Positions 174-15,051 of a stretch of DNA of 37,852 nt are shown piece by piece. The stretch comes from a virus. The notes below the pieces were generated by a model. It was given only the letters and a program-made list of their open reading frames with translations, did no database searches and was not told where the DNA came from. Made by a program: the position numbers and the translations under genes. Within the stretch, counting starts at the first letter, position 1. Every line of letters starts with the position of its first letter. The stretch is from the IMG/VR virus record IMGVR_UViG_3300012984_000005, positions 1 through 37,852 of that record; one strand, given 5' to 3'.

Positions 174-1643
174 ATGGCAAACTTTTTTCAGCGTTTTTTT
201 GGTGGCAAGCCGGCAGTCATACAAAGCGTAAAGGCTGCTCCTGGTGGTCCCGGTTTCAGGTTTATTGGTGGCGGATTGGTCCCATATGATACCCGGAAAC
301 TCACATTCATAGATAAAGGATATGCAGCCAATGACATGCTTTTCAGCGTGATCAAGCTCATAACGAAGAAGGCGCGACAGGCCCCAATGGCTCTTTATGC
401 CATTCAGGATGAAAGGAAGTTCTTCGAGTATACAAAAATGATCGGAGCATTGGGAGAAGGCACCCAACTAAGCGCGAAAGACATGATAAAGTTGAAGGAT
501 CTGAGGCATAAGGCACTAAAGCTGGATACTTCCGATGACTATATGAACGAACGGCTACAAAATCCAAACGACACCAATCAGACAATGGCCGACCTTAACG
601 AGGCCCTATTTGCATTTAAGCTAGTTACCGGGGATTATTATGAGGCCGGATGGTCTCCGCTTACCGGGGGCTTCAATAGGGGGAAGCCTTCACAATTCTA
701 TGAACTGCCTTCCCAGTATATGTCAATTGTCTCTACCAGGACGTTACCGCTTATTGAACAAAGCTATGAATTGATGCTTGGCGGCCGGCAGACTTTTGAT
801 GCTGATGACGTGTTGCATGAAAAATATGTAAATCTGCAATGGGATACAGCCGGCAACCAACTTTATGGTATGTCGCCCATACAGGCCGCATTAGCCAGAT
901 TGCAAGCGTCCAATGAGGGCATTAAGCGCCAGGGGAAGGCTATGAAGAATGCCGGTGCCGATGTAGCCGTCTACCAAGATGATCCGGAGACTACCCGACA
1001 GTTCCCGGATTACTCCATTGAGCAAATGGGGGCTTCAAAAGAACGATGGGAAGCGGAACAGTGGGGAAGTGAGAATGCAGGTAAGGCTATTTGGTCACCT
1101 ACTAAATTGGGCGTAGCTCGTCTCGGCCTTTCGCCAGTTGATCTGGCGCAATTACCGGCAGAATTGGCCAATCTGCGCTGGTTTTGTAATCTTTATGATG
1201 TGCCAAGCCAATTGATGAATGATCCAGAGAACAAGATTTATTCGAATCAGGTGGAAGGACAAAAGGCGCTTCTGTACAATGCAGTACTTCCGTTGCTCAT
1301 TTCCAGGCAGCAGAATTTCAATAAGAAGCTCCGACGTATGGACGCGTACCGGGGCACTAACAAAGTAGTAGAGTTCGATATATCCATTTATAAGGAACTG
1401 GAATCAAATAAACAGGAGCTTGTAGGATGGCTGAAAGACTCCCGTTTTAACATGGAAACGTTCTATAAATACATGGATCAGGAAATTCCTGCTGACATGC
1501 CGGAAGAGGTTCGTAAGGCCATTCTAATACCAACAGGATATCAGTTGATTGATGACCTATTCATGTCACAGCAGGATCAGGGAGCGTTAACCCAGCAATT
1601 GAATAATTCAGGCGATAACCCATATAATTTACCAGTTTCTTGA
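174..1643 (+). CDS. Portal protein (HK97 family)
   Basis: At 489 aa this has the size and position, directly after TerL, of the dodecameric portal. The portal forms the channel at the unique capsid vertex for DNA entry and exit. Family-typical stretches include the early YAANDMLFSVIKLI region, the central YGMSPIQAAL segment followed by a long helical region near residues 235-265, and a C-terminal part with DVPSQLMNDPENKIYSN, close to the lambdoid portal motif. The start ATG is preceded by an A/T-rich TATAAT context without a Shine-Dalgarno sequence. The last four residues are LPVS, an ending shared with three other virion proteins here. The family call rests on recognition of the sequence, order and length. 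Confidence 0.9.
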   Translation: MANFFQRFFGGKPAVIQSVKAAPGGPGFRFIGGGLVPYDTRKLTFIDKGYAANDMLFSVIKLITKKARQAPMALYAIQDERKFFEYTKMIGALGEGTQLSAKDMIKLKDLRHKALKLDTSDDYMNERLQNPNDTNQTMADLNEALFAFKLVTGDYYEAGWSPLTGGFNRGKPSQFYELPSQYMSIVSTRTLPLIEQSYELMLGGRQTFDADDVLHEKYVNLQWDTAGNQLYGMSPIQAALARLQASNEGIKRQGKAMKNAGADVAVYQDDPETTRQFPDYSIEQMGASKERWEAEQWGSENAGKAIWSPTKLGVARLGLSPVDLAQLPAELANLRWFCNLYDVPSQLMNDPENKIYSNQVEGQKALLYNAVLPLLISRQQNFNKKLRRMDAYRGTNKVVEFDISIYKELESNKQELVGWLKDSRFNMETFYKYMDQEIPADMPEEVRKAILIPTGYQLIDDLFMSQQDQGALTQQLNNSGDNPYNLPVS

Positions 1644-1670
1644 TTGGTATCATATTTGTCTGTATATTTG
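1639..1670 (+). promoter_or_regulatory. Promoter, GGTATCAAA family (copy 1)
   Basis: A TTG at 1640-1642 and TATATTTG at 1663-1670 are separated by 20 bases, matching the Bacteroidota -33/-7 promoter. The spacer holds GGTATCATA at 1646-1654 followed by TTTGTCTG. Four other promoters in this genome share this spacer box. It overlaps the portal stop codon and lies 15 bases before the ATG at 1685, which argues against the in-frame upstream start at 1640. Confidence 0.75.
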
Positions 1671-1684
1671 GGCTAAAAGATACT

Positions 1685-1912
1685 ATGAAAGTAAAGGCAT
1701 TTTATCGGCCCGGTATTGGATATTTATTATATTACCCCGATGGGCGTCCGTTAGATGTTCCTAATATGGGGCCGATAAATATTTCAGAGGAAGTAATTGA
1801 CGCAATATCCAAGTGCGGTAAAACCAGGTTTGCAGGAGAAGTAATAGCTTCTATTTCTTTCCCGATTGAAATAGTAAATGTAGATCCTGACATTAATCTT
1901 AAAAACTTATAA
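1685..1912 (+). CDS. Hypothetical protein, 75 aa
   Basis: No family was recognised. The protein begins MKVKAFYRPGIGYLLYYPDG and is a compact mixed-polarity product with no membrane segment or Cys motif. An in-frame start exists at 1640, but the promoter occupies that stretch, so the ATG at 1685 is preferred. It is the first gene after promoter copy 1 and probably heads the short transcript that includes the following genes up to the minor head protein. Confidence 0.6.
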   Translation: MKVKAFYRPGIGYLLYYPDGRPLDVPNMGPINISEEVIDAISKCGKTRFAGEVIASISFPIEIVNVDPDINLKNL

Positions 1913-1922
1913 AACGCACTAT

Positions 1923-2555
1923 ATGGCACTAATGGTTGTATCAAAACAATTCAAAGAAAGAAATCCGAATCTATTTCAGATGATGATAGATAAATATGGA
2001 GAGTTCAAGCAGATAGAAGAGAATGAGGCAAAAATAATATTCAGATTCAACGCGCCAGGTACAGAAGAAAACACCTATTATAATCAATGGTTTAATGAAA
2101 TTAGCCATGGAGTATACGCGATGGGAGGATTAATGGAGGACGATGAGGACGAAAAAAACCGCCGATGCATGTTAGAGCATATTGCACAAATTAATGAGGA
2201 TGTAAGATTACAAAAAGAGATAGGGAATAATGTTGGCTCCATTTCTGATGGATACCACACATTTGATGAACTTTACGCGCACCGGATCGGGTTATTTAGA
2301 GCGCTTTGCTGCTTTCTGCATTATAATGTGGTAAATCCAACGCCATACGTTTGGAAAGCAAAAAAACATCATGATGGCACCGAGTTTAATGGATGGTTTC
2401 TTGCTGGCATTGGAAGCGAACCGGGCAAACAAATAACATATCATATACCAATGCAAGAATGGGACACGTGGCCTGGGGAAGAATTTGATCAATCGCCTTA
2501 TGGATGGGATGGCCATACATCTGCTGACGTACTTGAAAGATTGAGAAGATTATGA
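1923..2555 (+). CDS. Conserved phage protein of unknown function, 210 aa
   Basis: The central part has the pattern SDGYHTFDELYAHRIGLFRA, then WKAKKHHDGTEFNGWF and GKQITYHIPMQEWD. From memory this recurs in uncharacterised phage and prophage proteins from many hosts, with the same DGYHTF...ELY.HR and TYHLP motifs. No enzymatic role is established for the family. The N-terminal 80 residues look like a separate acidic segment (MEDDEDEKN). It overlaps the next gene by an ATGA junction, implying translational coupling. The start ATG sits in the A/T-rich context TATATGG. Confidence 0.7.
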   Translation: MALMVVSKQFKERNPNLFQMMIDKYGEFKQIEENEAKIIFRFNAPGTEENTYYNQWFNEISHGVYAMGGLMEDDEDEKNRRCMLEHIAQINEDVRLQKEIGNNVGSISDGYHTFDELYAHRIGLFRALCCFLHYNVVNPTPYVWKAKKHHDGTEFNGWFLAGIGSEPGKQITYHIPMQEWDTWPGEEFDQSPYGWDGHTSADVLERLRRL

Positions 2556-2749
2556 AGGAAGAATTAAATATACTTGATCGCCTTTTAAGGAGCAGATATT
2601 TCGTTTCCCATATTGTGGTTTATAAAATAGACGGGCATTTGATATGGTCTATGTTTGATAAACATTCTCAAATAAAATATCCAGATGGGCGTATTATAAA
2701 GGATAGATGGCCTTTACCTGCCTTTATCATAAAACCAAAGAAGAAATGA
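2552..2749 (+). CDS. Hypothetical protein, 65 aa
   Basis: A small basic protein (ends PAFIIKPKKK) with no recognised family. It starts inside the stop codon of the gene before it (ATGA) and ends with another ATGA junction into the glycosyltransferase. This makes it a translationally coupled link in the operon and supports it being real despite its size. A tryptophan/hydrophobic stretch (HLIWSMFDKHSQIKYPDGRI) resembles short phage proteins that accompany the SDGYHTF family, but I cannot assign a role. Confidence 0.55.
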   Translation: MKEELNILDRLLRSRYFVSHIVVYKIDGHLIWSMFDKHSQIKYPDGRIIKDRWPLPAFIIKPKKK

Positions 2750-4299
2750 TCATGCAAGAGAACAACATGGAATCGGAACAAATATTCCCTCAAAATTTGC
2801 TTGATAAACTGACAGGCATTGCTGATACAATATCTCAATCTTCTGATATTTTTAAAATAGGCATAGGGATAACCACACATAACCGGCCAGAAGCGTTTGC
2901 AAAAACATTATCGCACATAATAGCATTATTGCCAGAAAATGCCTTTATCGTAACGATAGATGACTGTAGTGATACCAATTATGCATACAAAGCGACTGGA
3001 AGCAATAAGAAGTATTTCAGATTCGATACAAATGTAGGAATAGCCAGAGCAAAGAATAAGGCATTGGAGCTATTATACAATGCTGGGTGCGAACACTTCT
3101 TTCTGTTTGATGACGATACTTATCCTACTACGGACGATTGGTGGAAACCATATATAGAGAGCAGAGAGCCGCATTTAATGTACATATTTGAGCATTTCGC
3201 CAATGCGAAAGGGCCAAACGATATGATTAAAGTGTATCAGGATGAGGAAATTTCCGCTTACTCCCACGTTAGAGGCTGCATGCTTTATTATGAGCGTGTT
3301 GTATTAGATACCGTGGGCGGAATGGATGTTGCTTTCGGCAAATGGGGGCATGAGCATGGCGATCTATCAAATCGTATTTATTCAGCGGGACTTACTAGGT
3401 TCAGATACATGGACGTGGCTAATTCAAAAGGCCTATTTTATGCGGCGGATGAACAGGAGCATGGAAAGTTCATGAGCACGGTTCCGGGTCACCAACGAAT
3501 TGATCTGCTAAATGCATCTAAAGCTATATATGAAGCGCAATATAATAAGCCATTTTATAGAGAATTCCGGGAAAAATCCGATTCGATACAAAGGGATGGT
3601 AAAAAGCCTTTATTCTTGACGGCTTACTTTACAACGCTGGATGATCCGCAGCGGCCAGGGCAGAAAAAGGAATTCTTCAGTCCCGATTTCGCTGCATATG
3701 CCGGTTCAATTGCATTGTATCATAGTCATTGCACTATATTGACAGATCATCATAGCGAAGTTTTATATGATAGATGTAATTTAGTCCGGGTTCCTGTATG
3801 CGGAAATCCATATTTTCAGCGATGGATGAGCTACTACGAATATCTGATCAGGCATAAAGACTCAATTTCATGGACATTCATGACGGATTGTACTGATGTT
3901 GAACTGCTGAAGATGCCAGAGCCGGAACGTGGTAAGATTTACGTAGGAGACGAACCAGATTTGATAGGCAAGTCAACATGGTTGCAATATCACCACAAGC
4001 ACCCAAAGCTACAGACATTCTACAAAATTTACAGACTGAATCAAATGGTGAATGCCGGCATACTGGGCGGTTATGTGGAAGATGTGCTGCCATTCATCCG
4101 GTCGATAATTGATACATATATACAAATGCTACATGAGTCTGCAACGAATAAGGTATTTGGTCCTGGCATGACCGACATGGGGATATTCAATTATGTGGCT
4201 TATGCTCAGTTCGCAGATAAGATTAGCCATGGTAAGCATGTGAATACACGATTCAAGGCGAATGAGCGGAATGACATTTCCTGGTTTAAACACAAATGA
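2746..4299 (+). CDS. Glycosyltransferase (family 2-like, two domains)
   Basis: A 517-aa protein. The N-terminal half is a GT-A fold glycosyltransferase. It has a nucleotide-binding start (GIGITTHNRPEAF near residue 38), the IVTIDDCS strand, the RAKNKALE segment and a FDDDTYP metal/nucleotide-sugar DxD near residue 120. The GHEHGDLSNRI region resembles the GT2 acceptor-side acidic motif. The C-terminal half, from about residue 290 (PLFLTAYFTTLDDPQ), looks like a second transferase-type domain. It lies between portal and minor head genes, so a virion protein or phage DNA could be its target, but donor and acceptor are unknown. An earlier in-frame start at 2707 is disfavoured because ATG 2746 overlaps the upstream stop. 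Confidence 0.75.
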   Translation: MIMQENNMESEQIFPQNLLDKLTGIADTISQSSDIFKIGIGITTHNRPEAFAKTLSHIIALLPENAFIVTIDDCSDTNYAYKATGSNKKYFRFDTNVGIARAKNKALELLYNAGCEHFFLFDDDTYPTTDDWWKPYIESREPHLMYIFEHFANAKGPNDMIKVYQDEEISAYSHVRGCMLYYERVVLDTVGGMDVAFGKWGHEHGDLSNRIYSAGLTRFRYMDVANSKGLFYAADEQEHGKFMSTVPGHQRIDLLNASKAIYEAQYNKPFYREFREKSDSIQRDGKKPLFLTAYFTTLDDPQRPGQKKEFFSPDFAAYAGSIALYHSHCTILTDHHSEVLYDRCNLVRVPVCGNPYFQRWMSYYEYLIRHKDSISWTFMTDCTDVELLKMPEPERGKIYVGDEPDLIGKSTWLQYHHKHPKLQTFYKIYRLNQMVNAGILGGYVEDVLPFIRSIIDTYIQMLHESATNKVFGPGMTDMGIFNYVAYAQFADKISHGKHVNTRFKANERNDISWFKHK

Positions 4300-4300
4300 T

Positions 4301-4639
4301 ATGTATGCAAAAGAGATATTAATAGAACAGACCGAAAAGGGGCTGTATTGGAGCAACCTGGTTTTGGTGACGCGCAATCACCGTAAGGATACAAAGGAAC
4401 CTATTGGCAACGCGTGGATAATGGAGGTGGGGGGAAAGTATTATGCAGACATCAGCGAACTTACCATTGATCCTACTGGTATGTACCCATCAATAGGATG
4501 GATTAGTCATTCGGATAATACCAATACCCCATCCGGTAAAATATTCGAGCTGTCTATTTGTGATGAGAAAAATGTAGATGATTTAATCCTGCCTATTGGG
4601 ATGGGGAATGGAGAGGTAAAGGCGAAATCCTATATATGA
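4301..4639 (+). CDS. Hypothetical protein, 112 aa
   Basis: No recognised family. It contains WIMEVGGKYYADISELTIDP and a hydrophilic, probably beta-rich body with no signal or membrane segment. The ATG at 4301 comes directly after the glycosyltransferase stop. An in-frame start at 4262 would overlap that gene by 38 bases and is less attractive. It ends in an ATGA overlap with the next small gene, so it is part of the same coupled operon leading to the minor head protein. Confidence 0.55.
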   Translation: MYAKEILIEQTEKGLYWSNLVLVTRNHRKDTKEPIGNAWIMEVGGKYYADISELTIDPTGMYPSIGWISHSDNTNTPSGKIFELSICDEKNVDDLILPIGMGNGEVKAKSYI

Positions 4640-4842
4640 ATTACGAGCAAATGAAGCTGCAACCGCTGCCAATGCCAAAAGGATTGTCTGAAGTAGATCA
4701 GGAAGTTTGGAGACAATTGCCTGATCTTTGGGGGGATTGCGCTTCAACCAGGAGCCGAAAAAAGTATCAACGTGCCCGCATGCGGGATCAAATTATATCA
4801 AATGCCCAATCCAACACTGACACAGGAGCGCAGCCTTTATAA
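4636..4842 (+). CDS. Hypothetical protein, 68 aa
   Basis: A short protein with a proline-rich start (MKLQPLPMPKGLSE) and a basic helix (STRSRKKYQRARMRDQI). It starts within the stop of the preceding gene and overlaps the beginning of the minor head gene by 41 bases. Its place directly before a Mu-F-like protein suggests a small head-assembly accessory protein, but this is inference from position only. Confidence 0.5.
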   Translation: MNYEQMKLQPLPMPKGLSEVDQEVWRQLPDLWGDCASTRSRKKYQRARMRDQIISNAQSNTDTGAQPL

Positions 4843-5641
4843 TCAGTTATCCAGGAAGCAGGCCAAACGAGAGGCCGCAGCAGAAACGCGTATCTTATAT
4901 GCTATTCATCGGCAGATATCGCCTGTTCTGGATATTCTGCGTGAACGTGGGTATACGGCTGCCATAAACGCGGTTTCATCGATATCAAATTATCCAATTG
5001 AAGGCGTATTACGCGGCTTATATCGGGATTTCGGAACAGATTCAGCAAATGATACTTATGCATATATTCAGCGTTTTTGGGGTGATGAAATAAATGGACA
5101 AAAGGCGTTTGGATTCAATGCTATATGGTCCGCCATCATGAATGCTTTCTTTCAGATTTCAGGAGCCAGGAACGTGACGAGGATAACTGAGTCTAACCGA
5201 GAGCGGCTGCGCAAGGAGCTTATCCAAGGGCAGAGTGACGGGATAGACAACTATACACTTGCCGAACGGCTGCAAGGGCCTCAAATTTGGCGCGTTAGGG
5301 CAAAGCTGATAGCAAGGACGGAAACAGGAATAGCGTCCAGCTATGGGGCCGAAATAGGGGCAAAGCAGTCAGGCATTCTTATGAATAAGAAATGGCTGTC
5401 TGCCCGAGATAAGAGAACCAGGAGGATTCCGCCGGATCAGACCGATCATTATGTAATGAATAACATCCAGGTGGCTATGAATGATTTCTTTATGGTGCCA
5501 AGCGAATCTGGTTTCAATATGATGCTACGCCCTCACGCGGAAGGAGCACCAGCAAATCAAGTATGCAATTGCAGATGCAAGGCTATTTATATTCCGGCCA
5601 GGGACGCCAGAGGGCGAATAATAAGAACTAATTCTCGATAA
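4802..5641 (+). CDS. Minor head protein, Mu gpF / SPP1 gp7-like
   Basis: A 279-aa protein whose C-terminal half has the family hallmarks: a helical region, then LIARTETGIASSYGAEIGAKQSG, then KKWLSARDKRTR, a histidine (TDHYVM), and the closing HAEGAPANQVCNCRCKAIYIP. Proteins of this family bind the portal and are incorporated inside the procapsid, where some help DNA exit or ejection. It follows the portal gene after five intervening small or accessory genes. A start at 4772 is open, but ATG 4802 removes an atypical leader. It is the last gene of the transcript; a hairpin terminator follows. Confidence 0.82.
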   Translation: MPNPTLTQERSLYNQLSRKQAKREAAAETRILYAIHRQISPVLDILRERGYTAAINAVSSISNYPIEGVLRGLYRDFGTDSANDTYAYIQRFWGDEINGQKAFGFNAIWSAIMNAFFQISGARNVTRITESNRERLRKELIQGQSDGIDNYTLAERLQGPQIWRVRAKLIARTETGIASSYGAEIGAKQSGILMNKKWLSARDKRTRRIPPDQTDHYVMNNIQVAMNDFFMVPSESGFNMMLRPHAEGAPANQVCNCRCKAIYIPARDARGRIIRTNSR

Positions 5642-5658
5642 ATCTTGTGTGACAACAG

Positions 5659-5685
5659 GGCGGTATTTCTATGCCGCCTTAAAAT
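5659..5685 (+). terminator. Intrinsic terminator after minor head gene
   Basis: GGCGGTA at 5659-5665 pairs with TGCCGCC at 5672-5678 (one G-U pair) across a six-base loop and is followed by an A/T-rich tail. It ends the portal to minor-head transcript and abuts promoter copy 2. Confidence 0.75.
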
Positions 5686-5688
5686 TTA

Positions 5689-5720
5689 TTTGGCCGGTAT
5701 CAAATTTGTCAGTATGTTTG
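5689..5720 (+). promoter_or_regulatory. Promoter, GGTATCAAA family (copy 2)
   Basis: TTTG at 5689-5692, a 20-base spacer and TATGTTTG at 5713-5720. The spacer contains GGTATCAAA at 5696-5704 and then TTTGTCAG. This is the best match to the family consensus. It drives the accessory block that starts at 5742. Confidence 0.82.
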
Positions 5721-5741
5721 CATTAACAAAACAAGGGTACT

Positions 5742-6080
5742 ATGATAACAGAAATTCTTATAAATGATCAATCGTCTTATAACGAAAGGGGGAAAGGAGA
5801 TCTTATTCAGTTGTCATCTGACATTCATTCTATTGGAGTGGGCTTTGAATCATTTGATGAGGCAGAGGAATTCTGCGCGAAATTCACAAAATCAATGAAG
5901 ATACGGGTGGTGACTGTTAATTCTCATACATTTTTAAATAATGATATACAGGTGTTGAAAAAGCCGTTTGTAATGTGCAGACGTATGATTCAAAACGGAA
6001 TAACAGGAAGTGTAAATGAGATGGGGGATAAGAGAATGAAAAGATTTTACGATGAACTATCAAAATATAAACAAAAATAA
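5742..6080 (+). CDS. Hypothetical protein, 112 aa
   Basis: No recognised family. The sequence has a beta-alpha pattern (IHSIGVGFESFDEAEEFCAKF), a short basic C-terminus and no signal or membrane segment. It is the first gene behind promoter copy 2, with an ATG about 20 bases downstream of the predicted -7 element, so its leader is very short. First-gene position after a phage promoter fits an early accessory function, but nothing in the sequence identifies one. Confidence 0.6.
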   Translation: MITEILINDQSSYNERGKGDLIQLSSDIHSIGVGFESFDEAEEFCAKFTKSMKIRVVTVNSHTFLNNDIQVLKKPFVMCRRMIQNGITGSVNEMGDKRMKRFYDELSKYKQK

Positions 6081-6102
6081 TATACACATAAAAATAAATA
6101 AT

Positions 6103-6456
6103 ATGTTCACAACTCAAATTTCAAATAAAAAGGAACACACGAATGGCATAATAACTTTCACGGTAAAAAATACTTGGATGACTCAATATACATTTTCTAA
6201 ACATGGCTGGGGAAATGGATATATTGGATTGCCAAAAGAGCATCCTCTTTTCGGCAGAGAATATGAAGATCTAAACGATGTGGCGCATGTCCATGGAGGC
6301 TTTACATTTGGTGAAATAGGTGAAATTGATGGAAAAGAATACCATGTATTCGGATTTGATACATGTCATGGTATGGATGATATGCAAAGATGGCCAGAAT
6401 CGGCGGTAATTGAGGAAATAGAGTCTGTGGTTAATGCATTTGTTGATTTCGTTTAA
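6103..6456 (+). CDS. Conserved phage protein of unknown function, 117 aa
   Basis: The region GNGYIGLPKEHPLFG, then VHGGFTFGEI, YHVFGFDTCHGMDD and a final W..SAVIEEIESVV matches a pattern I recall from many uncharacterised phage proteins (GYV.VP..HP..G ... VHGG.T ... FGFD..H). The conserved His and Asp residues could suggest a metal site, but no activity is known to me. The ATG at 6103 sits in an AATAATATG context; an earlier in-frame ATG at 6052 would overlap the previous gene and add an Asn/Lys-rich leader, so it was not used. Confidence 0.68.
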   Translation: MFTTQISNKKEHTNGIITFTVKNTWMTQYTFSKHGWGNGYIGLPKEHPLFGREYEDLNDVAHVHGGFTFGEIGEIDGKEYHVFGFDTCHGMDDMQRWPESAVIEEIESVVNAFVDFV

Positions 6457-6489
6457 TAATTAATCCATCCGGGCGCGGTACGCGATAGT

Positions 6490-6912
6490 ATGATAATTAA
6501 AGCCACTAAATGTCCCGCATGCGGTAGATCAGACGTTCTCTGGAATGGAGAGAAGGGCATATGTACTGATTGTGGCGCGGATGTAAAAATACAAGATAGT
6601 AATGAATCACATGACCCATATAAGACAGAAGTTCGCCGGATAGCGGAGATACTTGCAAAGGTCGGTAAGCCAAACCTTATTGAATTCTATAAAAAAAAGA
6701 ATGACATAAGGTATGATAAGAACATTTCAAGACATTTAGAGCAAGCCCGCGCAATGGTTGCTGAAATGGCGAAACAGTACGAGCATGCCTATTTTAGCAA
6801 TTATCCTGGTGACGAGGATTCGCCTGAGTACGAATTATGGAACCAGAACTGCATTGCTGAAATGAAGGAACGCGGCCTCATTCCATCCCCAACAAAAGAT
6901 ATTGAAAAATGA
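6490..6912 (+). CDS. Zinc-ribbon protein, 140 aa
   Basis: Two CxxC knuckles at residues 8-11 (CPAC) and 25-28 (CTDC), 13 residues apart, form a treble-clef or zinc-ribbon like those used for nucleic-acid or protein contacts. The rest is helical and charged (RRIAEILAKVGKP...; MVAEMAKQYEHAYF), suggesting a helical tail after the ribbon. From memory, Lar-type phage proteins show a similar N-terminal CPxCG ribbon, but the body does not match closely enough to name it. It overlaps the next gene by ATGA. Confidence 0.6.
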   Translation: MIIKATKCPACGRSDVLWNGEKGICTDCGADVKIQDSNESHDPYKTEVRRIAEILAKVGKPNLIEFYKKKNDIRYDKNISRHLEQARAMVAEMAKQYEHAYFSNYPGDEDSPEYELWNQNCIAEMKERGLIPSPTKDIEK

Positions 6913-7103
6913 CACAAGACAGAAAATCACTAATGGTATTGATTGGTAATTTATTGAAGGGCCTTGTTTCAGGATCAAAGTTTCTTGTAATTATCAAGCA
7001 TCCAGATGATTCAATAGACTTTGCTGCAAATAATAAGGATGCGATTGAAATGGCTGTTAGGTTCATTGAGATAATTGAAACTGATAAAACAAGCAAGCAA
7101 TGA
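6909..7103 (+). CDS. Hypothetical protein, 64 aa
   Basis: A small protein starting in the stop codon of the zinc-ribbon gene and ending in a four-base overlap with the next gene, so translational coupling supports it. The N-terminus (LMVLIGNLLKGLVSGSKFLVII) is hydrophobic but short and may be a core strand-helix rather than a membrane anchor. The C-terminus is DSIDFAANNKDAIEMAVRFI. No family was recognised. Confidence 0.5.
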   Translation: MTQDRKSLMVLIGNLLKGLVSGSKFLVIIKHPDDSIDFAANNKDAIEMAVRFIEIIETDKTSKQ

Positions 7104-7321
7104 CGTACGAAGAAAGATTGCAAGCAGAATATAAGTATTGGGATGAAGCAGAAACGGAGAATGATCTTTATGTTGATGACGCATGGTTAATTGCTAAAAG
7201 AACAGTTTCGATGCAGGCAGCAGCAATAAGGAAGGCGAATCGGCAATGGGGTATACCAGTAGCATGGACTGAGTCATATTTAGAACAAAACGGGTACATC
7301 CCGGAAAAGGAGGAAGAGTAA
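7100..7321 (+). CDS. Hypothetical protein, 73 aa
   Basis: An acidic, largely helical protein (EERLQAEYKYWDEAETENDLYVDDAW) ending in a glutamate run encoded by the GA-rich stretch that also supplies the Shine-Dalgarno of the next gene. It overlaps both neighbours by a few bases. No family recognised. Confidence 0.5.
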   Translation: MTYEERLQAEYKYWDEAETENDLYVDDAWLIAKRTVSMQAAAIRKANRQWGIPVAWTESYLEQNGYIPEKEEE

Positions 7322-7326
7322 TGAAT
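7305..7326 (+). promoter_or_regulatory. Ribosome binding site, first copy of a 22-base repeat
   Basis: A strong AGGAGG Shine-Dalgarno lies nine bases before ATG 7321. The 22 bases from 7305 to 7326 recur at 7557-7578 with a single mismatch, ATG included. Strong Shine-Dalgarno sequences are exceptional in this genome. Confidence 0.65.
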
Positions 7327-7557
7327 ATTAATACACTAAACTCAAAAGTGAGGACTTTCTTATTGGAACATTGCATTAGCAAAAGAGGTGCAGATGCAAT
7401 TGCTGTTGTTTCTGGATTTATTAATTCAGATGAGGTAAAAGAATTAGTGATAGAACGTCGAGATGGCAAATGGTATTCTGTTTCAACAGGTCAATTAGTA
7501 TTAAGTGCTTGCATAACTATAGACTGCCTTCATCTTTCAAAAACAACATTGGTTTAA
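7321..7557 (+). CDS. Hypothetical protein, 78 aa
   Basis: No recognised family. Begins MNINTLNSKVRTFLLEHCIS, followed by an alpha-beta pattern (ADAIAVVSGFINSDEVKELVIERRDGKWYSV). It has an unusually strong AGGAGG ribosome binding site, duplicated in front of the 31-aa frame downstream. A start shared with the upstream stop indicates coupling as well. Confidence 0.5.
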   Translation: MNINTLNSKVRTFLLEHCISKRGADAIAVVSGFINSDEVKELVIERRDGKWYSVSTGQLVLSACITIDCLHLSKTTLV

Positions 7558-7578
7558 AAAGGAGGAAAAGTAATGAAT
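7557..7578 (+). promoter_or_regulatory. Ribosome binding site, second copy of the 22-base repeat
   Basis: Matches 7305-7326 at 21 of 22 positions, including AGGAGG and the ATG with its next codon. It precedes a 31-codon frame at 7573. This looks like a short duplicated start region. Confidence 0.6.
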
Positions 7579-7668
7579 TGTAAACCGTACAGAGCCTGCA
7601 CCGTTCGTTACTGGTGGAACAGGTATAGCTTTTTAAGTGCCATATTAGTAACTAAATACTGGAAGTGA
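7573..7668 (+). CDS. Small protein or gene remnant, 31 aa
   Basis: A 31-codon frame (MNCKPYRACTVRYWWNRYSF...KYWK) with one of the best Shine-Dalgarno sequences in the genome. It ends in an ATGA-type junction with the next gene. It is basic and rich in Trp, Tyr and Cys. Because its ribosome site and start duplicate those of the gene at 7321, it could be a remnant left after a duplication, a real micro-protein, or a leader that couples translation to the downstream gene. Confidence 0.4.
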   Translation: MNCKPYRACTVRYWWNRYSFLSAILVTKYWK

Positions 7669-7877
7669 TGTCACAGAAAGGACAGATAATAAAGCATGAG
7701 TGGGTGCACGACTATAAATGGTTTTTTAAATGCTCATATTGCGAATGCGTTATGGTACTTTCTGACGTTGGGAATATATGCTATATCCCAAAGGACCATA
7801 AAGGGGCATCACTTGCTTTAGAACCACCATGCATCACCCGTAAAACACAAACAGATGGAGACAGTACAACAACATGA
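7668..7877 (+). CDS. CxxC small protein, tandem paralogue A (69 aa)
   Basis: Contains HEWVHDYKWFFKCSYC with CxxC at residues 22-25 plus Cys27, then GNICYIP and a closing EPPCITR. The next gene repeats the same skeleton (HEWV, KCxxC, V..xDxGxIxY..P, EPPCITR), so the two are tandem paralogues. The four conserved Cys/His-like positions suggest a small zinc-binding or redox module. An in-frame GTG three bases upstream is possible, but ATG 7668 overlaps the previous stop. Function unknown. Confidence 0.6.
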   Translation: MSQKGQIIKHEWVHDYKWFFKCSYCECVMVLSDVGNICYIPKDHKGASLALEPPCITRKTQTDGDSTTT

Positions 7878-8055: not shown

Positions 8056-8081
8056 GCATTTAATCAAAAGAACAATAAAAA

Positions 8082-8573: not shown

Positions 8574-8578
8574 ACGTC

Positions 8579-8596
8579 CCGCAAACGACATTGCGG
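8579..8596 (+). terminator. Short hairpin, possible weak terminator
   Basis: CCGCAA at 8579-8584 pairs with TTGCGG at 8591-8596 across a six-base loop, directly after the secreted-protein gene. There is no T-run, so it may instead be a transcript-stabilising or regulatory hairpin in front of the gene at 8607. Confidence 0.4.
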
Positions 8597-8606
8597 ATAC
8601 ATATAT

Positions 8607-8945: not shown

Positions 8946-8954
8946 TTTAAAATG

Positions 8955-8990
8955 TCCGCAGTGTTTTTATTGAAACACTGCGGATTAAAA
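8955..8990 (+). terminator. Intrinsic terminator, 12-bp perfect stem
   Basis: TCCGCAGTGTTT at 8955-8966 pairs perfectly with AAACACTGCGGA at 8973-8984 across a six-base loop, followed by TTAAAATT. It lies between the genes at 8607 and 9000. It rules out the in-frame upstream start at 8952 for the next gene, because that start would put the hairpin inside the coding region. Confidence 0.72.
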
Positions 8991-8999
8991 TTGTATATA

Positions 9000-9167
9000 A
9001 TGAAATTGACAAATAGGAAAGAGGTATTAGAAGCAATAATAGGCGACAAGGATGATTGTCAGAATATTATTGATCTACAATCAGAAATGATATATGGATG
9101 GATGCAAGATGCAGGGTTTTCTGAAGAAGCCATTACTCACTACTTAACCGCTAATGGATTAAAATAA
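9000..9167 (+). CDS. Hypothetical protein, 55 aa
   Basis: A small acidic protein starting MKLTNRKEVLEAIIGDKDD, probably three short helices; the last segment (MQDAGFSEEAITHYLTANGLK) reads like a small helix-turn-helix or UBA-like bundle, but that is only a resemblance. The start at 9000 was chosen because the alternative at 8952 runs through a terminator hairpin. One base separates it from the next gene. Confidence 0.5.
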   Translation: MKLTNRKEVLEAIIGDKDDCQNIIDLQSEMIYGWMQDAGFSEEAITHYLTANGLK

Positions 9168-9168
9168 G

Positions 9169-9741
9169 ATGACAAAAAAAAGAGGTAGAAAGCCGGAAAT
9201 AAAGGCTGATGATTTAATCAAAGCAGGGTATACCTATAAAATGGATATCCTAACTGATGATGAGCGCGACGAATGGGTAAATGGTAAAAAGGGTGTAGAT
9301 AGCCGAGGCCGGCCAGCAAGGTATGAAAGTGATGACTTTGATTATTTCTTTAAAGCCCTGGCAAATGGCACCGAGATTCGGATTTATCACGCCATAAAGA
9401 AATTTTACTACAATAACGTTCGTATACGATATGGAGATAGTTTGCCGAAATATGAAAAGCATGCATCTGAGCAAAAGCAATGGAATGATCTGCAATTAAA
9501 GATAGATGATACCCCTCCCGCTGATTTTGTAATGCCAGATACTATAAAGCCGGGACAAGAGATAATAATACTAAAAGGCGGTCCATTGGATGGGAAAGAA
9601 CGTGTATATCTTCCAATACTTAAGTTCTATCTGGAACCATACGACTTTAAGATAATAGAGGGCCGTAGATCATCCATTTCCGCACGGTATATCCAGGATA
9701 AGGAAAATAAGCTAATTTATCACTTCGAAAAAATAATCTGA
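9169..9741 (+). CDS. Hypothetical protein, 190 aa, with basic N-terminus
   Basis: Begins TKKRGRKPEIKADDLIKAGY, an AT-hook-like RGRKP element, suggesting nucleic-acid contact. The middle has SRGRPARYESDDFDYFF. The C-terminal third (KPGQEIIILKGGPLDGKERVYLP ... YHFEK) resembles the GGP.DG strand motif of small beta-type phage proteins. No family with known function was recognised. Its TGA overlaps the next ATG. Confidence 0.55.
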   Translation: MTKKRGRKPEIKADDLIKAGYTYKMDILTDDERDEWVNGKKGVDSRGRPARYESDDFDYFFKALANGTEIRIYHAIKKFYYNNVRIRYGDSLPKYEKHASEQKQWNDLQLKIDDTPPADFVMPDTIKPGQEIIILKGGPLDGKERVYLPILKFYLEPYDFKIIEGRRSSISARYIQDKENKLIYHFEKII

Positions 9742-9938
9742 TGAAAAAGATAAAATCAACCGATGAATTAATAGGAGGTGAATATTTGCTTATACAGTCA
9801 ATCGGCGGAACGGACATGTGGGCAATTGGCCGATTGCATAGTATAGAAAACGGAACTATTTATTTGTCATATAATGATGATTGTGTACAGGAGATAAATA
9901 TTGATCGCGCAAATGAAGGTGATATTTATATAATCTAA
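9741..9938 (+). CDS. Hypothetical protein, 65 aa
   Basis: A small, beta-rich, acidic protein (KSTDELIGGEYLLIQSIGGTDMWAIGRLHSI ... EGDIYII) that looks like an SH3- or KOW-like barrel by its alternating pattern. This is only a fold impression. It begins in the stop codon of the previous gene (TGATG) and precedes the RNA ligase by 11 bases, so all three probably share a transcript. Confidence 0.5.
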   Translation: MKKIKSTDELIGGEYLLIQSIGGTDMWAIGRLHSIENGTIYLSYNDDCVQEINIDRANEGDIYII

Positions 9939-9949
9939 ATACATATATA

Positions 9950-10552
9950 ATGAAAAAAATACCCTCGCTCTTTGTAAGGAATTACGAAATGATTGGAACC
10001 GTAGATGGAGTTAAGAATAGAGTTCTGGCCACCGAACAGGTAACGCCAGGATGTGAATGGGTGCTTAATGGCGAAGGCATAGCAACCCGTAAATGGGACG
10101 GAACTGCTGTATTAATTACCAATGGTGTGCTATATAAGCGATACGATGCCAAACATGGGAAGACGCCACCACCTAATTTTGAGCCATGCCAAGAACCAGA
10201 TCCCGTTACCGGTCACTGGCCTGGTTGGGTGCCTGTATATGAGCATCTGCCAGAAAACAAGTGGATTATTGAGGCATTTAGTAATTCATGTGAAGTAAGA
10301 AAGCCTCATGGCTTGCCGGACGGCACATACGAGGCAATAGGGCCAAAAATCGGTGGCAACAAAGATAAATCCACAATACATCAACTAAGGAAGCATGGTG
10401 CGGCAAAAATATGGACATCGGAAACGCTGCTAAGAACATTCAAGTCAATAAGAGATTCATTAGAGTACTATAATATTGAAGGGATAGTTTTCCATCATCC
10501 AGACGGCAGAATGTGTAAGGTTAAACGTTCTGATTTTGGGTTGCCGTGGTGA
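9950..10552 (+). CDS. RNA ligase (RLIG1 / former DUF5565 type nucleotidyltransferase)
   Basis: A 200-aa member of the covalent nucleotidyltransferase superfamily that seals RNA ends through a lysyl-AMP intermediate. Motif I is KWDGTAVL (catalytic Lys near residue 47), followed by KRYDAKHGKTPPPNFEP and DPVTGHWPGWVPV. Motif III/IIIa-like YEAIGPKIGGN and motif IV/V IEGIVFHHPDGRMCKVKRSDFG complete the core. The combination KxDGT...KRYDAK...PDPVTGHWPGW...IEGIVxHHPDGRMxKxKRxDFG is what I recall for the RLIG1 family, which includes human C12orf29 and bacterial and phage proteins. It is the last gene before a strong terminator. RNA or tRNA repair during infection is the likely purpose. Confidence 0.82.
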   Translation: MKKIPSLFVRNYEMIGTVDGVKNRVLATEQVTPGCEWVLNGEGIATRKWDGTAVLITNGVLYKRYDAKHGKTPPPNFEPCQEPDPVTGHWPGWVPVYEHLPENKWIIEAFSNSCEVRKPHGLPDGTYEAIGPKIGGNKDKSTIHQLRKHGAAKIWTSETLLRTFKSIRDSLEYYNIEGIVFHHPDGRMCKVKRSDFGLPW

Positions 10553-10576
10553 ATTTTTCAATGATATGAATAATGC

Positions 10577-10608
10577 AAAGGGCCTGGATTGAAATCCGGC
10601 CCTTTTTT
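10577..10608 (+). terminator. Strong intrinsic terminator after RNA ligase
   Basis: AAAGGGCC and GGAT (10577-10589, one bulged T) pair with ATCC and GGCCCTTT (10594-10605) across a short loop, and a run of six T follows the pairing Cs. It separates the accessory block from the head operon. Confidence 0.85.
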
Positions 10609-10612
10609 CGTA

Positions 10613-10707
10613 ACCATTAATTGTTGTAAAAACTTATGCCAAAAGTAAGAAATATAAACCAAAATTATATATTTGCTGTATATTACGTGTGTGACCATTA
10701 ATTGCTG
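10613..10707 (+). promoter_or_regulatory. Head-operon promoter flanked by a direct repeat
   Basis: TATATTTG at 10668-10675 is a perfect -7 element for Bacteroidota; no good -33 element or GGTATCAAA box is seen. The sequence ACCATTAATTG(T/C)TG occurs at 10613-10626 and again at 10694-10707, 81 bases apart, bracketing the -7 element. The arrangement suggests a regulator that binds on both sides of the late promoter, but this is inference. The prohead protease starts at 10731. Confidence 0.55.
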
Positions 10708-10730
10708 AAGACTGCAAATCACGCAGATTC

Positions 10731-11456
10731 ATGAGGCAATATGCAATAAAATTAAATAACTCACTGGATTTCAATGTCAAAGATGTTGATACTAATGGCC
10801 GTGTGGTATCTTTATACGCCGCAGCCTTTGATAACATTGATCGGGATGGGGACGTAATTGTAAAGGGGGCATTCAAGAAAACGATAAAAGAACAAGGGCC
10901 GCAGGGTATAGATGAAATTTGGCACTTATTATATCATAACCCAGATATGCCGGTTTCAAAGGCATTCGAACTAACAGAAGACAATTACGGATTACTTGCC
11001 CGTGTAAAAATGCCTACAACTGACCGTGGAAATGATACCCTTCAAATGTATCTGGATGGACATTATAAGCACCATTCTATAGGATATCAGACAATCCGTA
11101 AACAGGATAGACAGCAATATAAAGAACTTCAAGAGCTGCGCCTATTTGAGAAATCTACTGTATTGTGGGCTGCGAATCCGGCCGCAACTGTTGTGGATGT
11201 AAAATCATTGCTGAAAGAATTCTCAAAAGATCAGCTACAAAAAGAAATAGACCTGACTATTAAGTCTTTCCGATCAGGTCATTATACCGACGAGACATTT
11301 TCTTTATTGGAAATAAAAATGAAGCAATTAATTCAGGCCGTTTCCGAAACGTCTGACACTCCTGCCGTTCCTGTTGAGGAAACACAGGAGCCGTCCGAAA
11401 AAGGAGTTAGTGCCGAATATGCAAGAATGAAAATCAAATTATTAACAACATTGTAA
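10731..11456 (+). CDS. Prohead protease (HK97 gp4-like, S78)
   Basis: A 241-aa protein. The N-terminal 160 residues are the HK97-type serine protease that cleaves scaffold domains during capsid maturation. Family patterns present are VVSLYAAAFDNIDRDGDVIVKGAF, the His of LYHNPDMPV (near residue 67), LLARVKMPTTDRGND and the Ser of HHSIGYQTI (near residue 117). Histidine and serine are in the expected order for the catalytic residues. The last 80 residues are charged and helical, and may act as an internal scaffold. It is the first gene of the head operon and directly precedes the major capsid gene. Confidence 0.88.
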   Translation: MRQYAIKLNNSLDFNVKDVDTNGRVVSLYAAAFDNIDRDGDVIVKGAFKKTIKEQGPQGIDEIWHLLYHNPDMPVSKAFELTEDNYGLLARVKMPTTDRGNDTLQMYLDGHYKHHSIGYQTIRKQDRQQYKELQELRLFEKSTVLWAANPAATVVDVKSLLKEFSKDQLQKEIDLTIKSFRSGHYTDETFSLLEIKMKQLIQAVSETSDTPAVPVEETQEPSEKGVSAEYARMKIKLLTTL

Positions 11457-11465
11457 TTATTTTAT

Positions 11466-12680
11466 ATGTCAGACGTTTTAACGAAACAGGACTTTGACAT
11501 GGTGATTGACACCGTGGCAAAACACAAAAAGTCACAGGATGAAGCATTGGCGGCAGTGAAAGAACTAATTCGCACCGATTATGCAACCCCTGGTGCGCTA
11601 AAAGAGCTTGAGGATAAGTTTGAGGCCAAGTTCAAAACCATGAACGACTATTCCGAGCAGCTTGAGCGCCAGATCAAGGGCAAAGAATTGGCCAAGGAAG
11701 AGCAAAAAGGATTCGCTACACTGCTGGCGGAGGGCCTGGAAAAGGACTGGTCCGAAATCACCCGTTTCAAATCATCCTCAAAAGGAAAGGTATTCACGCT
11801 TACCAATATGAAGGCAGCGGCAGACATGACGATTGCCAACTCTGTGACTGATCCAGGCGCATACTTTACTACCGTTCTTCCTGGCATTCGTACACTGCCT
11901 AACCGTCGCGTACACATGCGTGATATTATCAATCTGGGAACTATGACTAATTCCAGCGTTGATTATGTGCGCGAAGAGTCTGTAACAGGAGATTTGACTA
12001 CTGTTGCAGAAGGAGCGGATAAACCGCAGATTCAACCGCTTTTCTCTGAAAGGCAAGCAACTGCTCAGTATATTGCCGGATGGCTTCGTATTTCCCGTAA
12101 GATGCTGGATGATATGCAGGCACTTCGTAGCTATTTGCAGATGCGCCTGATGGAAATGTATTTGAAGGTGGAAGATGCACAAATTCTCTCAGGCGATGGC
12201 ACCGGCTCAAATCTCGAGGGCATTTTGACCGTAGCGGCTGCATTGAATGATAATACCGGCCCTAATGTTGAGCGTATTGTTCATGCAATTTCCCAGCTTG
12301 AAAGCGCTGATTACTATGCTACTGGTGTAGTACTGCATCCTGCTGCGTATTATGAAATCGCGCTGAATAAAGCATCTGGTAGTGGTGAATATGATTTGCC
12401 ATTAGCTCTTGTCGTAATCCAGAATGGTCAGTTATATGTAGCTGGCGTACCAGTGTACAAAACTACTGCAATGCCACGCGATACGTTTGTTGTGGGCGAT
12501 TGGGACCTCGGTGCGCAGCTATTTATTCGTGAGCAGCCCGTAGTTGAATTCTTCGATCAGGATGCAAATAACGTTACTACCAACAAGATCACCGTACGTA
12601 TTGAGGGCCGTGTAGCGCTTGCGATATATCGCGAAGCCGCCTTTGTGCAGGGTACATTTGAGAATATTCCAGTTTCGTAA
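11466..12680 (+). CDS. Major capsid protein (HK97 fold)
   Basis: A 404-aa protein. About the first 110 residues are a charged, helical delta-like scaffold domain (LEDKFEAKFKTMNDYSEQLERQ) that the protease is expected to remove. The mature shell fold follows: VTDPGAYFTTVLPGIRTLPNRRVHMRDIINLGTMT, RISRKMLDDM, DAQILSGDGTGSNLEGIL and the C-terminal strand region KITVRIEGRVALAIYREAAFVQG. GDGTG is the usual E-loop/spine-region signature of HK97 capsid proteins. It ends IPVS, like three other virion proteins here. A terminator hairpin follows, which suits high-level expression. Confidence 0.93.
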   Translation: MSDVLTKQDFDMVIDTVAKHKKSQDEALAAVKELIRTDYATPGALKELEDKFEAKFKTMNDYSEQLERQIKGKELAKEEQKGFATLLAEGLEKDWSEITRFKSSSKGKVFTLTNMKAAADMTIANSVTDPGAYFTTVLPGIRTLPNRRVHMRDIINLGTMTNSSVDYVREESVTGDLTTVAEGADKPQIQPLFSERQATAQYIAGWLRISRKMLDDMQALRSYLQMRLMEMYLKVEDAQILSGDGTGSNLEGILTVAAALNDNTGPNVERIVHAISQLESADYYATGVVLHPAAYYEIALNKASGSGEYDLPLALVVIQNGQLYVAGVPVYKTTAMPRDTFVVGDWDLGAQLFIREQPVVEFFDQDANNVTTNKITVRIEGRVALAIYREAAFVQGTFENIPVS

Positions 12681-12689
12681 TTTATTCAT

Positions 12690-12724
12690 ATCACGGGAGT
12701 GAGCATTCATTCCCGTGATCTTAT
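12690..12724 (+). terminator. Intrinsic terminator after major capsid gene
   Basis: ATCACGGGA at 12690-12698 pairs perfectly with TCCCGTGAT at 12711-12719 across a 12-base loop, followed by CTTATATTTTA. It probably partly stops transcription, giving more capsid than connector mRNA. Confidence 0.75.
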
Positions 12725-12791
12725 ATTTTAATAAATGCTATCTCTTCTTCATCATGATAAGCCTATAACAAATAACCGGGTATTATATCCC

Positions 12792-13292
12792 ATGAAGGAA
12801 TTAATATCAGGCGACCCAATTATTACATTGGATCAGGCAAAGTCATGGCTAAAAATGGATGGTATTACTGCAGATGATGACGTGATCCAAGGCATTATTG
12901 ATGCGGGCGTAGAATGGATTGAGCGTATTTGCGCAATATCTATTCAGGCATATACTATTACCGCTACAGTAGAAATACATAACCGGATTGAATTGCCATA
13001 TGGTCCAGTAACAGAGATTGTATCGATAAATGACGTGCCGTTTTCGGACGTAAAAGCATGTCAGATCATTGGCCCATCAATAGGTTTTCCCAGGCTTTCC
13101 GGATATGGATTGTTTGTGGTCATCTATAAAACGGGTTATAATCCAATTCCTCCTGGCATTATCCTGGCTTTAAAAGAATATGCATCCTGGTGCTATGAAC
13201 ATAGAGGTGACAGCTATGATGAAAATGATAGTGATTTCTGTTTAGTTGCTAAGCGTCAATTATCCACTTTTAGAAGGAATATAGGAGTATGA
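12792..13292 (+). CDS. Head-tail connector (HK97 gp6-like)
   Basis: A 166-aa protein beginning MKELISGDPIITLDQAKSWLKMDG, the usual start of gp6-like connectors (LxxAKxxLrid) that form a ring below the portal. The body has helical DDDVIQGIIDAGVEWIERICAISI and beta segments, ending with LALKEYASWCYEHRGDSY. A longer in-frame start at 12735 would add 19 residues with no family match, so 12792 is preferred. It begins 68 bases after the capsid terminator and overlaps the next gene by ATGA. Confidence 0.75.
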   Translation: MKELISGDPIITLDQAKSWLKMDGITADDDVIQGIIDAGVEWIERICAISIQAYTITATVEIHNRIELPYGPVTEIVSINDVPFSDVKACQIIGPSIGFPRLSGYGLFVVIYKTGYNPIPPGIILALKEYASWCYEHRGDSYDENDSDFCLVAKRQLSTFRRNIGV

Positions 13293-13621
13293 TTGGCAAA
13301 ATGAGAGATAGGATATTTGTGCAGGAGAACATCCGTATTCCTGTTCCAGGTGCTGGCGGTATATCATCCTGGCAGACTGTATTGGATGTATGGGCAAATG
13401 TAAAGCCACTGAGCAGCCGGGGTACATTGCAGGATAATCAGTCTATAATGAAGAACGCGAAAACATTCACTATACGGTTCATCGACGGAATGAATTTGAC
13501 GCCAGAAATGAGGGTATTGCATGAAGGTGCAATATATACTATCAATAGCGATGTAAATGTGAATGAACGGGATAGATTCGTACAATTTAATGCTTATGCA
13601 AATGGATTCCCGGTAAGCTGA
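13289..13621 (+). CDS. Head-tail adaptor / joining protein (SPP1 gp16-like)
   Basis: A 110-aa protein with the pattern IGKMRDRIFVQENIRIPVPGAGG, WQTVLDVWANVKPLSSRG, KNAKTFTIRFIDGMNLTPEMRVLHEGAIYTINSDVN, which is the layout of the phage head-tail joining family (TV.W..I.P........). It seats under the connector. It overlaps both neighbours (ATGA upstream, TGATG downstream). The last four residues are FPVS, shared with portal, capsid and tail tube. Confidence 0.8.
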   Translation: MIGKMRDRIFVQENIRIPVPGAGGISSWQTVLDVWANVKPLSSRGTLQDNQSIMKNAKTFTIRFIDGMNLTPEMRVLHEGAIYTINSDVNVNERDRFVQFNAYANGFPVS

Positions 13622-14154
13622 TGGCAATAAGCATACAAATACGAGGGTTTGACCAGTTATTAGCCACTTTCGATAATTTAGAAGAGGCTTTGGTCGTGGA
13701 TATAGATAATGCCTGTCGCGCCAAGGTATACGACATAAATGCAGATGCATCTACGTTCATTCAGGGTGCCGCATTGGACAACGGGGAGCTTTTACAGTCA
13801 CAACAGGTGATTGAAGACCCACACAATAGATCATATTCAGCCGTAAATACGGCGCCGTATGCGGGATATGTACATTTTGGAACTGGTCAAAAAGTAGAGA
13901 TTCCGCAGGGGTGGCAAGACGTGGCCGCTGAATGGAAAGGAAAGAAAGGAGGTACTTTTTCTGAATTTGTACAAAGGATGCGTGAATGGTTAGGACGACA
14001 TGGGGGAAATCCAGATAAAGCCTATATTGTATGCGTTTCAATTTTAACAAATGGATTGGAAGCCAGGCCATTTCTTTCAGTTCCATTTCAAAAAGGAGTT
14101 TCAGAATTAACGAAAGAAGTTAACGACATTGTAAAGAGCGCTTTAAGATCATGA
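13621..14154 (+). CDS. Tail-completion protein (HK97 gp10-like)
   Basis: A 177-aa protein in the usual position between joining protein and DUF3168-like gene. It begins ISIQIRGFDQLLATFDNLEEALV and contains PYAGYVHFGT, the family's Y..YVEFGT motif, then RPFLSVPFQKGVSELTKEV near the end (family form RPFL.PA). These are the signatures of HK97 gp10-like proteins, which close the tail tube at the head end. Both flanking junctions overlap by one to four bases, showing tight coupling. Confidence 0.82.
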   Translation: MAISIQIRGFDQLLATFDNLEEALVVDIDNACRAKVYDINADASTFIQGAALDNGELLQSQQVIEDPHNRSYSAVNTAPYAGYVHFGTGQKVEIPQGWQDVAAEWKGKKGGTFSEFVQRMREWLGRHGGNPDKAYIVCVSILTNGLEARPFLSVPFQKGVSELTKEVNDIVKSALRS

Positions 14155-14603
14155 GAGATGCTTCAAAGGATATACGGGTTTTCAGTGCTTTGGCATTATC
14201 TAATATCAATGTAACAGATGATTTAGGAAATGCGTATAATGTCCCGGTTTATGATGGGAAGGCACCTACGGGGGCACCATTTCCAAGGATTATATTGGGC
14301 GGCATCTCTTCGCCATCTGGAAATGTCCGCTTCAGCAAATGTGCTTTTGGGGGCGTGTGGTCACAGACGATAAAAGCCAGTATGTTCTACCAGGGAGATG
14401 TAACAAAAAATTTGGTAGACGATATTAGTAATGAAATCAGTGTATTGCTTTGCCCACTGCTACCTCCTTACATTAGCCTGAGTCCAGATTTCAATGTCTT
14501 TAAGGTTGATGTGGTCATGGGGCCTCACTTGGAATATACCGATGAAATCGGAAACTATATAGATAAAAATATAACTATAAATTATTCAATAACACAAAAT
14601 TAG
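14151..14603 (+). CDS. Tail terminator / completion protein (DUF3168-like)
   Basis: A 150-aa protein with the tail-terminator layout: N-terminal helix, then VPVYDGKAPTGAPFPRIILGGISSPS (family form VYD..P....FPYV..G), TIKASMFYQGDVTKNLVDDISNEISVLLC and a terminal strand ENITINYSI-like segment. In the family it caps the tail tube at the head-proximal end. It begins inside the stop codon of the gp10-like gene and precedes the tail tube gene by four bases. Confidence 0.75.
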   Translation: MRDASKDIRVFSALALSNINVTDDLGNAYNVPVYDGKAPTGAPFPRIILGGISSPSGNVRFSKCAFGGVWSQTIKASMFYQGDVTKNLVDDISNEISVLLCPLLPPYISLSPDFNVFKVDVVMGPHLEYTDEIGNYIDKNITINYSITQN

Positions 14604-14607
14604 TATC

Positions 14608-15051
14608 ATGGCAAACGAACCTGTTAACGGGTCAGACATTATCTTACAATATGATACCACAAATGGCGTCGGGATCGCTGACTGGAACCTCGTTGCCTGT
14701 GGTACTGAAAGCGGTATTGACGGAACCGTAGAAACTATTGACGCGACCAGCAAATGCGGGCCAGCTCAGTTACCCGGTACGCTGACGGAAACCTATAATT
14801 TCACCGGGTTCATGGCCAAGAATCCGGCAGCTGATACGGTAAGCATTAATGAAATGCGTGCCATCTTCAAAGCTAAAACCATTGGTCACTGGCGCTCATT
14901 TGACCAGGAAACCGCAGGCGCAACATATTATCGTGGGTTCTTTGGCGCTATTACCACATTCAATGAAACGACGAATCAGAATGAGGCTGTAGGGTTCAAT
15001 TTGGTAATCTCAATTACCGGCAATACTGTGGATGTGCTGCCGGTAAGCTAA
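14608..15051 (+). CDS. Major tail tube protein
   Basis: A 147-aa protein located directly before the tail assembly chaperone and tape measure genes, as expected for the major tail protein. The pattern NGSDIILQYDTTNG, LVACGTESGIDGTVETIDATSKCG, ETYNFTGFM and a closing VGFNLVISITGNTVDVLPVS matches the tail-tube beta-sandwich (target strand, glycine-rich turn, terminal strand). It is short, so it lacks an extra Ig decoration domain. It ends LPVS like portal, capsid and adaptor. Confidence 0.82.
   Translation: MANEPVNGSDIILQYDTTNGVGIADWNLVACGTESGIDGTVETIDATSKCGPAQLPGTLTETYNFTGFMAKNPAADTVSINEMRAIFKAKTIGHWRSFDQETAGATYYRGFFGAITTFNETTNQNEAVGFNLVISITGNTVDVLPVS

Follow-up and report, generated by a model that had tools for sequence, protein, structure and literature searches.

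The capsid and tail tube proteins of mycobacteriophages have been reported to carry O-glycans at their C-termini (Freeman et al. 2023, Cell Host Microbe 31:1216, as relayed by papers that cite it; PMC12619734, PMC11600133). According to the same citing papers these glycans weaken antibody recognition, and Che8 and Rita are named among the phages with glycosylated virions in a further article (PMC11256854). The literature searched yielded no description of virion glycosylation beyond the actinobacteriophages, nor of a tag of the kind considered here. Our subject is the viral record IMGVR_UViG_3300012984_000005, analysed over its whole length of 37,852 nucleotides (the window), in which four virion proteins have the tripeptide Pro-Val-Ser (PVS) as their C-terminus: the portal, the major capsid protein (MCP), the head-closure adaptor and the tail tube. 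Comparative sequence data make it very probable that PVS is a C-terminal tag serving as O-glycosylation acceptor for a glycosyltransferase encoded by the phage itself (2707-4299).

On both points that can be tested in sequence, the window system looks like mycobacteriophage virion glycosylation: it has a homologous phage-encoded glycosyltransferase, and its MCP and tail tube share a serine-ending tail (IPVS/LPVS in the window, DGS/DGS in Bobi). The two nonetheless differ in several respects. The window tag is PVS (TT in relatives) whereas the mycobacteriophage tag is GS, the adaptor and portal are tagged as well, and the enzyme gene lies between the portal and MCP genes rather than near the genome end. 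The window phage is not a mycobacteriophage and its host probably differs; furthermore, mycobacteriophage glycans have been reported, whereas the modification proposed here is read from sequence and predicted structure. The initial annotation of the PVS tails had described them as a tag without known parallel, a view superseded both by the reported mycobacteriophage glycans (PMC12619734, PMC11600133) and by the presence in the window of a homologue of the cluster-F mycobacteriophage glycosyltransferase.

Shared C-terminal tails on virion proteins

A scan of both strands of the window for PVS followed by a stop (CCN-GTN-Ser-stop) returned exactly four sites, at 1632, 12669, 13610 and 15040, each the in-frame terminus of a virion gene on the plus strand. 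The portal protein (174-1643, 489 amino acids; Pfam PF04860, Phage_portal, 8e-25) ends ..NPYNLPVS, its tag lying at 1632-1640 (CCA GTT TCT; CCAGTTTCT TGA), and the HK97-type MCP (11466-12680; PF05065, Phage_capsid, 2e-36) ends ..GTFENIPVS, with the tag at 12669-12677 (CCA GTT TCG; CCAGTTTCG TAA). The adaptor (Hc1, Phage_HCP, 13289-13621; PF05521 2e-15, phrog_25 8e-17) finishes ..NGFPVS, and the tail tube (14608-15051; PHROG phrog_1407, major tail protein, 7e-12) finishes ..VDVLPVS. Both are spelled CCG GTA AGC, at 13610-13618 (CCGGTAAGC TGA) and 15040-15048 (CCGGTAAGC TAA) respectively. These results bear out the initial annotation on the shared terminus, the identities of the four proteins, the absence of other PVS-ending proteins in the window and the codon usage (two CCA GTT TCN, two CCG GTA AGC). 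The range that it gave (1632-15051) omits the greater part of the portal gene, and takes in the glycosyltransferase gene without mentioning it.

A nucleotide-level element was set aside as the cause of the shared tripeptide given the two distinct codon spellings. The end of a frameshifted Ig-like extension was likewise rejected, as the tails finish at plain stops. The HK97 tube has a C-terminal extension of ~80 residues, which we take to be Ig-like, where the tag would stand. In the MCP model the final strand stops at residue 397 and residues 401-404 are of low confidence, and the MCP family profile aligns with HK97 gp5 through residue 382 of 385; the MCP tag thus probably hangs loose outside the fold. 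Elsewhere in the window, a second protein of a tail tube family (19703-20461, PF06199, 252 amino acids) lies downstream of the tape measure and is untagged, ending ..NEVISA, while an RNA ligase-like protein (9950-10552, PF17720, 5.5e-11) is encoded within the virion gene region.

The known MCP relatives of the window phage are a Chryseobacterium prophage, the single prophage found when a genome collection was scanned with the MCP profile, and environmental contigs. The sister phage L001 (MCP 98% identical) keeps LPVS on the portal and IPVS on the MCP, its contig stopping before the adaptor and tube genes. In more distant relatives (MCP 58-65% identical) PVS is gone and another tail, usually PTT or TT, is common to the same proteins: MCP and tube both end TT in L003, L004, L006, L007 and L008, and the adaptor does so in L004, L005, L007 and L009. 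All four proteins are tagged in L007 (portal ..NPYRQTT, MCP ..FPTT, adaptor ..YTT, tube ..PTT), whose portal has the same stem as that of the window (..NPYNLPVS). The same four proteins, unrelated to one another, thus end in PVS in the window and in TT in L007, and their tails change together. Absence of PVS from close relatives had been put forward in the initial annotation as evidence against a function. In the literal sense PVS is indeed absent, but a concerted swap on the same proteins, as a pattern in sequence, says more for a function than an unchanged PVS would.

Beyond these relatives, mycobacteriophages with the enzyme gene carry GS-type tails on MCP and tube (Bobi DGS/DGS, MooMoo SGS/DGS, Rita TGS/DGS), as do the HK97-like phages ECP1 (SSGS/ASGS), AsXd-1 (SSGS/ESGS), ENT39118 (SSGS/AAGS) and HK542 (SSGS/ASGS).

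A two-domain glycosyltransferase near the portal gene

The glycosyltransferase gene (2707-4299, plus strand) encodes 530 amino acids and matches PF00535 (2.5e-8) and PF02709 (3.7e-6), both over cut-off; the true start of the open reading frame (ORF) may lie a few codons downstream. The protein is 38-40% identical, across 92-96% of its length, to the glycosyltransferases of cluster-F mycobacteriophages, to which Bobi belongs and in which the C-terminal O-glycans are reported, and the two sets of enzymes join one common tree. Its AlphaFold model has two domains (mean pLDDT 79). The N-terminal domain (residues 46-284; 2842-3558, plus strand) best matches human GalNAc-T2 and other peptide GalNAc-transferases (Z 18.5, root-mean-square deviation (rmsd) 2.9 over 217 residues), and contains a DDD motif at residues 135-137, of which D135 and D137 are invariant among 15 homologues. 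The C-terminal domain (residues 283-530; 3553-4296, plus strand) has a GT6-like alpha-1,3-Gal/GalNAc transferase fold, with Z ~17 to bovine alpha-1,3-galactosyltransferase and the blood-group A/B synthases.

These likenesses have limits as family assignments. Residues 46-284 share with the GT27 polypeptide GalNAc-transferases a fold and, by hypothesis, action on peptide Ser/Thr, but identity to human GalNAc-T2 is ~15%, and the window enzyme is proposed to recognise a free C-terminus. The GT-A fold with its DXD-type motif and the GT7C-like segment are traits common to other GT-A families and are no proof of GT27 membership. Pfam gave no match to the C-terminal ricin-type lectin domain typical of GT27, residues 283-530 being GT6-like instead, and the enzyme was not assigned to GT27. 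In the GT6 comparison (blood group A/B synthases, BoGT6a) the likeness is one of predicted fold, at 8-9% identity and without a Pfam GT6 match, and the window domain differs in being fused to a peptide GalNAc-transferase-like domain. The bifunctional chondroitin and heparosan synthases K4CP and PmHS2 also carry two glycosyltransferase domains per chain, the first giving a weak match (2.5e-5), but those enzymes polymerise polysaccharide and their whole-chain superposition with the window enzyme is poor (rmsd 12-18).

Homologues lie directly after the portal gene in L003, L004 and L009, and the enzyme family or PF00535 was found in only 5 of 30 records searched, all of which have PVS or TT tails. 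At the same place, the L007 phage carries a divergent GT2 gene and a GT4-like gene. The glycosyltransferase profile gave one partial match in 395 genomes of the Chryseobacterium prophage's phylum. The gene therefore resides mainly in phages, and prophages could add no further cases. In the window, a WDGH-domain protein (1923-2555, PF25311, 1e-29) separates the portal and glycosyltransferase genes. Some other phages have a second, small glycosyltransferase (phrog_14179, ~180 amino acids) beside the large one (L003:1944-2513, L009:2275-2817, L048:9480-10022), for which no counterpart was found in the window; that of L003 itself ends KIPTT, resembling the tagged virion proteins.

The large-enzyme family also occurs in the HK97-like coliphages ECP1, HK542 and mEp390 (phage records including L079:9842-11302), and in Klebsiella jumbo phages of ~300 kb (FBKp24, KpLz-2_45) whose enzymes are 53-57% identical to that of ECP1. 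From these sequences, the virions of these phages are predicted to be glycosylated.

Association of tail and enzyme, and competing explanations

Across all collected loci, the final residue of MCP and tube is an identical Ser or Thr in 32 of 33 records with the enzyme, compared with 5 of 18 without it (Fisher p ~2e-7); after dereplication the figures are 22/23 and 4/16 (p ~5e-6). Ser and Thr are never mixed within one enzyme-positive phage, and 11% of neighbouring ORFs end in either residue. For these counts the L007 phage was scored as enzyme-positive on its divergent GT2 gene, and the enzyme-negative set is impure, in that two phages with sugar-synthesis genes, L030 and L032, were conservatively kept as negatives. 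The MCP, adaptor and tube of both end in Ser although neither has PF00535, and both carry sugar-nucleotide dehydratase genes (GDP-mannose dehydratase family) upstream of the portal. The L032 phage (L163:5514-11458) additionally encodes glycosyltransferase-like (TOD1/MUCI70, GT-D-fold) and methyltransferase-like proteins, and the L030 phage (L160:735-2483) an aminotransferase-family protein. Judged by gene content, these phages may have met the same need independently, with another system for glycosylating the virion.

The records partly share ancestry, which affects the counts, and three further tests were therefore run. On a tree of 57 glycosyltransferases the Ser or Thr ending requires 2 changes, against a mean of 11.2 when shuffled (0/500 shuffles as low): there is one Thr clade, within which the window lineage returns to Ser on a long branch. 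On an MCP tree made without the tails, the enzyme type switches independently four times, and the tail follows in 4/4. Finally, ECP1 and L047 have MCPs that are 83% identical but end GTFSSGS and GTFQQTT, and tubes that are 68% identical but end RIYASGS and RIRPATT, while their enzymes fall in different clades (in the enzyme tree L047 is represented by L045, a phage with the same MCP tail). Near-identical virions with differing tails and differing enzyme clades indicate that, at the level of sequence, the tail tracks the enzyme and not the capsid.

Several observations weigh against an acceptor tag. The HK97 MCP ends SGS without the enzyme. In L010 the MCP (6444-7754, ..VPEPEE) and tube (9602-10024, ..TEAPEE) share a PEE ending that contains no Ser or Thr; a glycosyltransferase was not found in this phage, nor was any modifying enzyme among the proteins checked, a check that was not exhaustive, and the shared PEE perhaps reflects another modification, or chance. 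The portal should have its C-terminus on the inside of the head, where a glycan would have little to shield and fits poorly with protection of the particle surface. GT-A folds look alike, so the best fold match leaves the acceptor of the modelled enzyme unfixed. Lastly, many of the records are kin, and only four independent pairs were available, for which the sign test gives p 0.125, the lowest value attainable with four.

Of the uses that the initial annotation had suggested for the tails (docking, assembly or sorting, modification), modification is the one that the comparative data back. A variant of it is that the enzyme merely docks on the tail and glycosylates Ser or Thr elsewhere in the same proteins, since its association with the tail proves that the tail matters and not that it bears the sugar. 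We consider this improbable, however, as the final residue is Ser or Thr in nearly all enzyme-positive phages, just as an acceptor would be, and the glycans of mycobacteriophages are described by a citing paper as sitting at C-termini (PMC12619734). That one phage or host protein binds the common tails during assembly, with no modification involved, would account for a tail common to four virion proteins and for its concerted change, but the tail type follows the clade of the glycosyltransferase, the one gene for which co-variation was sought, in place of the capsid lineage, and we give this explanation little credence.

Still less likely is a stability signal, by which the tail would keep abundant virion proteins safe from host proteases that recognise C-termini. 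Abundance does apply to most of the tagged proteins, but not to adaptor and portal, and the near-identical HK97-type virions of ECP1 and L047 differ in tail along with enzyme. Chance or local gene conversion as the source of four identical tails is barely credible. Short C-terminal identities do arise easily, and when 60 tails were drawn from the 3,323 non-nested ORFs pooled across related loci, at least 4 had some one tripeptide in common in ~2% of draws, a repetitive null that overestimates chance because the pool itself includes repeated tags and repeated homologues. Against this, PVS ends none (0/3,323) of these background ORFs. The two codon spellings also speak against chance, as does the concerted replacement of PVS in other lineages, where these proteins carry TT or GS; the association counts and the parsimony of the enzyme tree strongly disfavour it.

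A proposed C-terminal tag code for virion glycosylation

An acceptor tag draws together the concerted tails, the enzyme association, the cluster-F homology, the predicted GalNAc-transferase-like fold and the probably loose MCP tail. We infer that the enzyme acts on these tails, and likewise which residue bears the sugar, what the sugar is and what purpose it serves. In the mechanism we propose, the glycosyltransferase would recognise virion proteins by their free, disordered C-termini. Its GalNAc-transferase-like N-terminal domain would attach a first sugar to the terminal Ser through its hydroxyl (in relatives, to Thr-Thr or Ser), and the GT6-like C-terminal domain would then elongate this sugar. 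A short glycan would accordingly sit at the end of every subunit of MCP, tail tube, adaptor and portal, the many surface copies on capsid and tube probably serving to shield the particle or to alter what it sticks to.

More generally, we lean towards the view that C-terminal tags form an interchangeable code among tailed phages from several bacterial phyla, HK97-like coliphages among them. The glycosyltransferase would read the final residues of any virion protein bearing the tail that matches it, with tail and enzyme exchanged or retuned together (GS, TT, PVS). The tail-enzyme rule names the likely attachment residue, and near-identical pairs (SGS versus TT) are well suited to experiment. If correct, a three-residue C-terminal tag together with a one-gene, two-domain glycosyltransferase would also make a compact protein glycosylation tool. 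Glycosylated virions have so far been demonstrated in mycobacteriophages only; the rule predicts them in phages of several host groups, including the easily grown HK97-like coliphages. Overall, should the tag code hold, virion glycosylation would be widespread and predictable from sequence alone.

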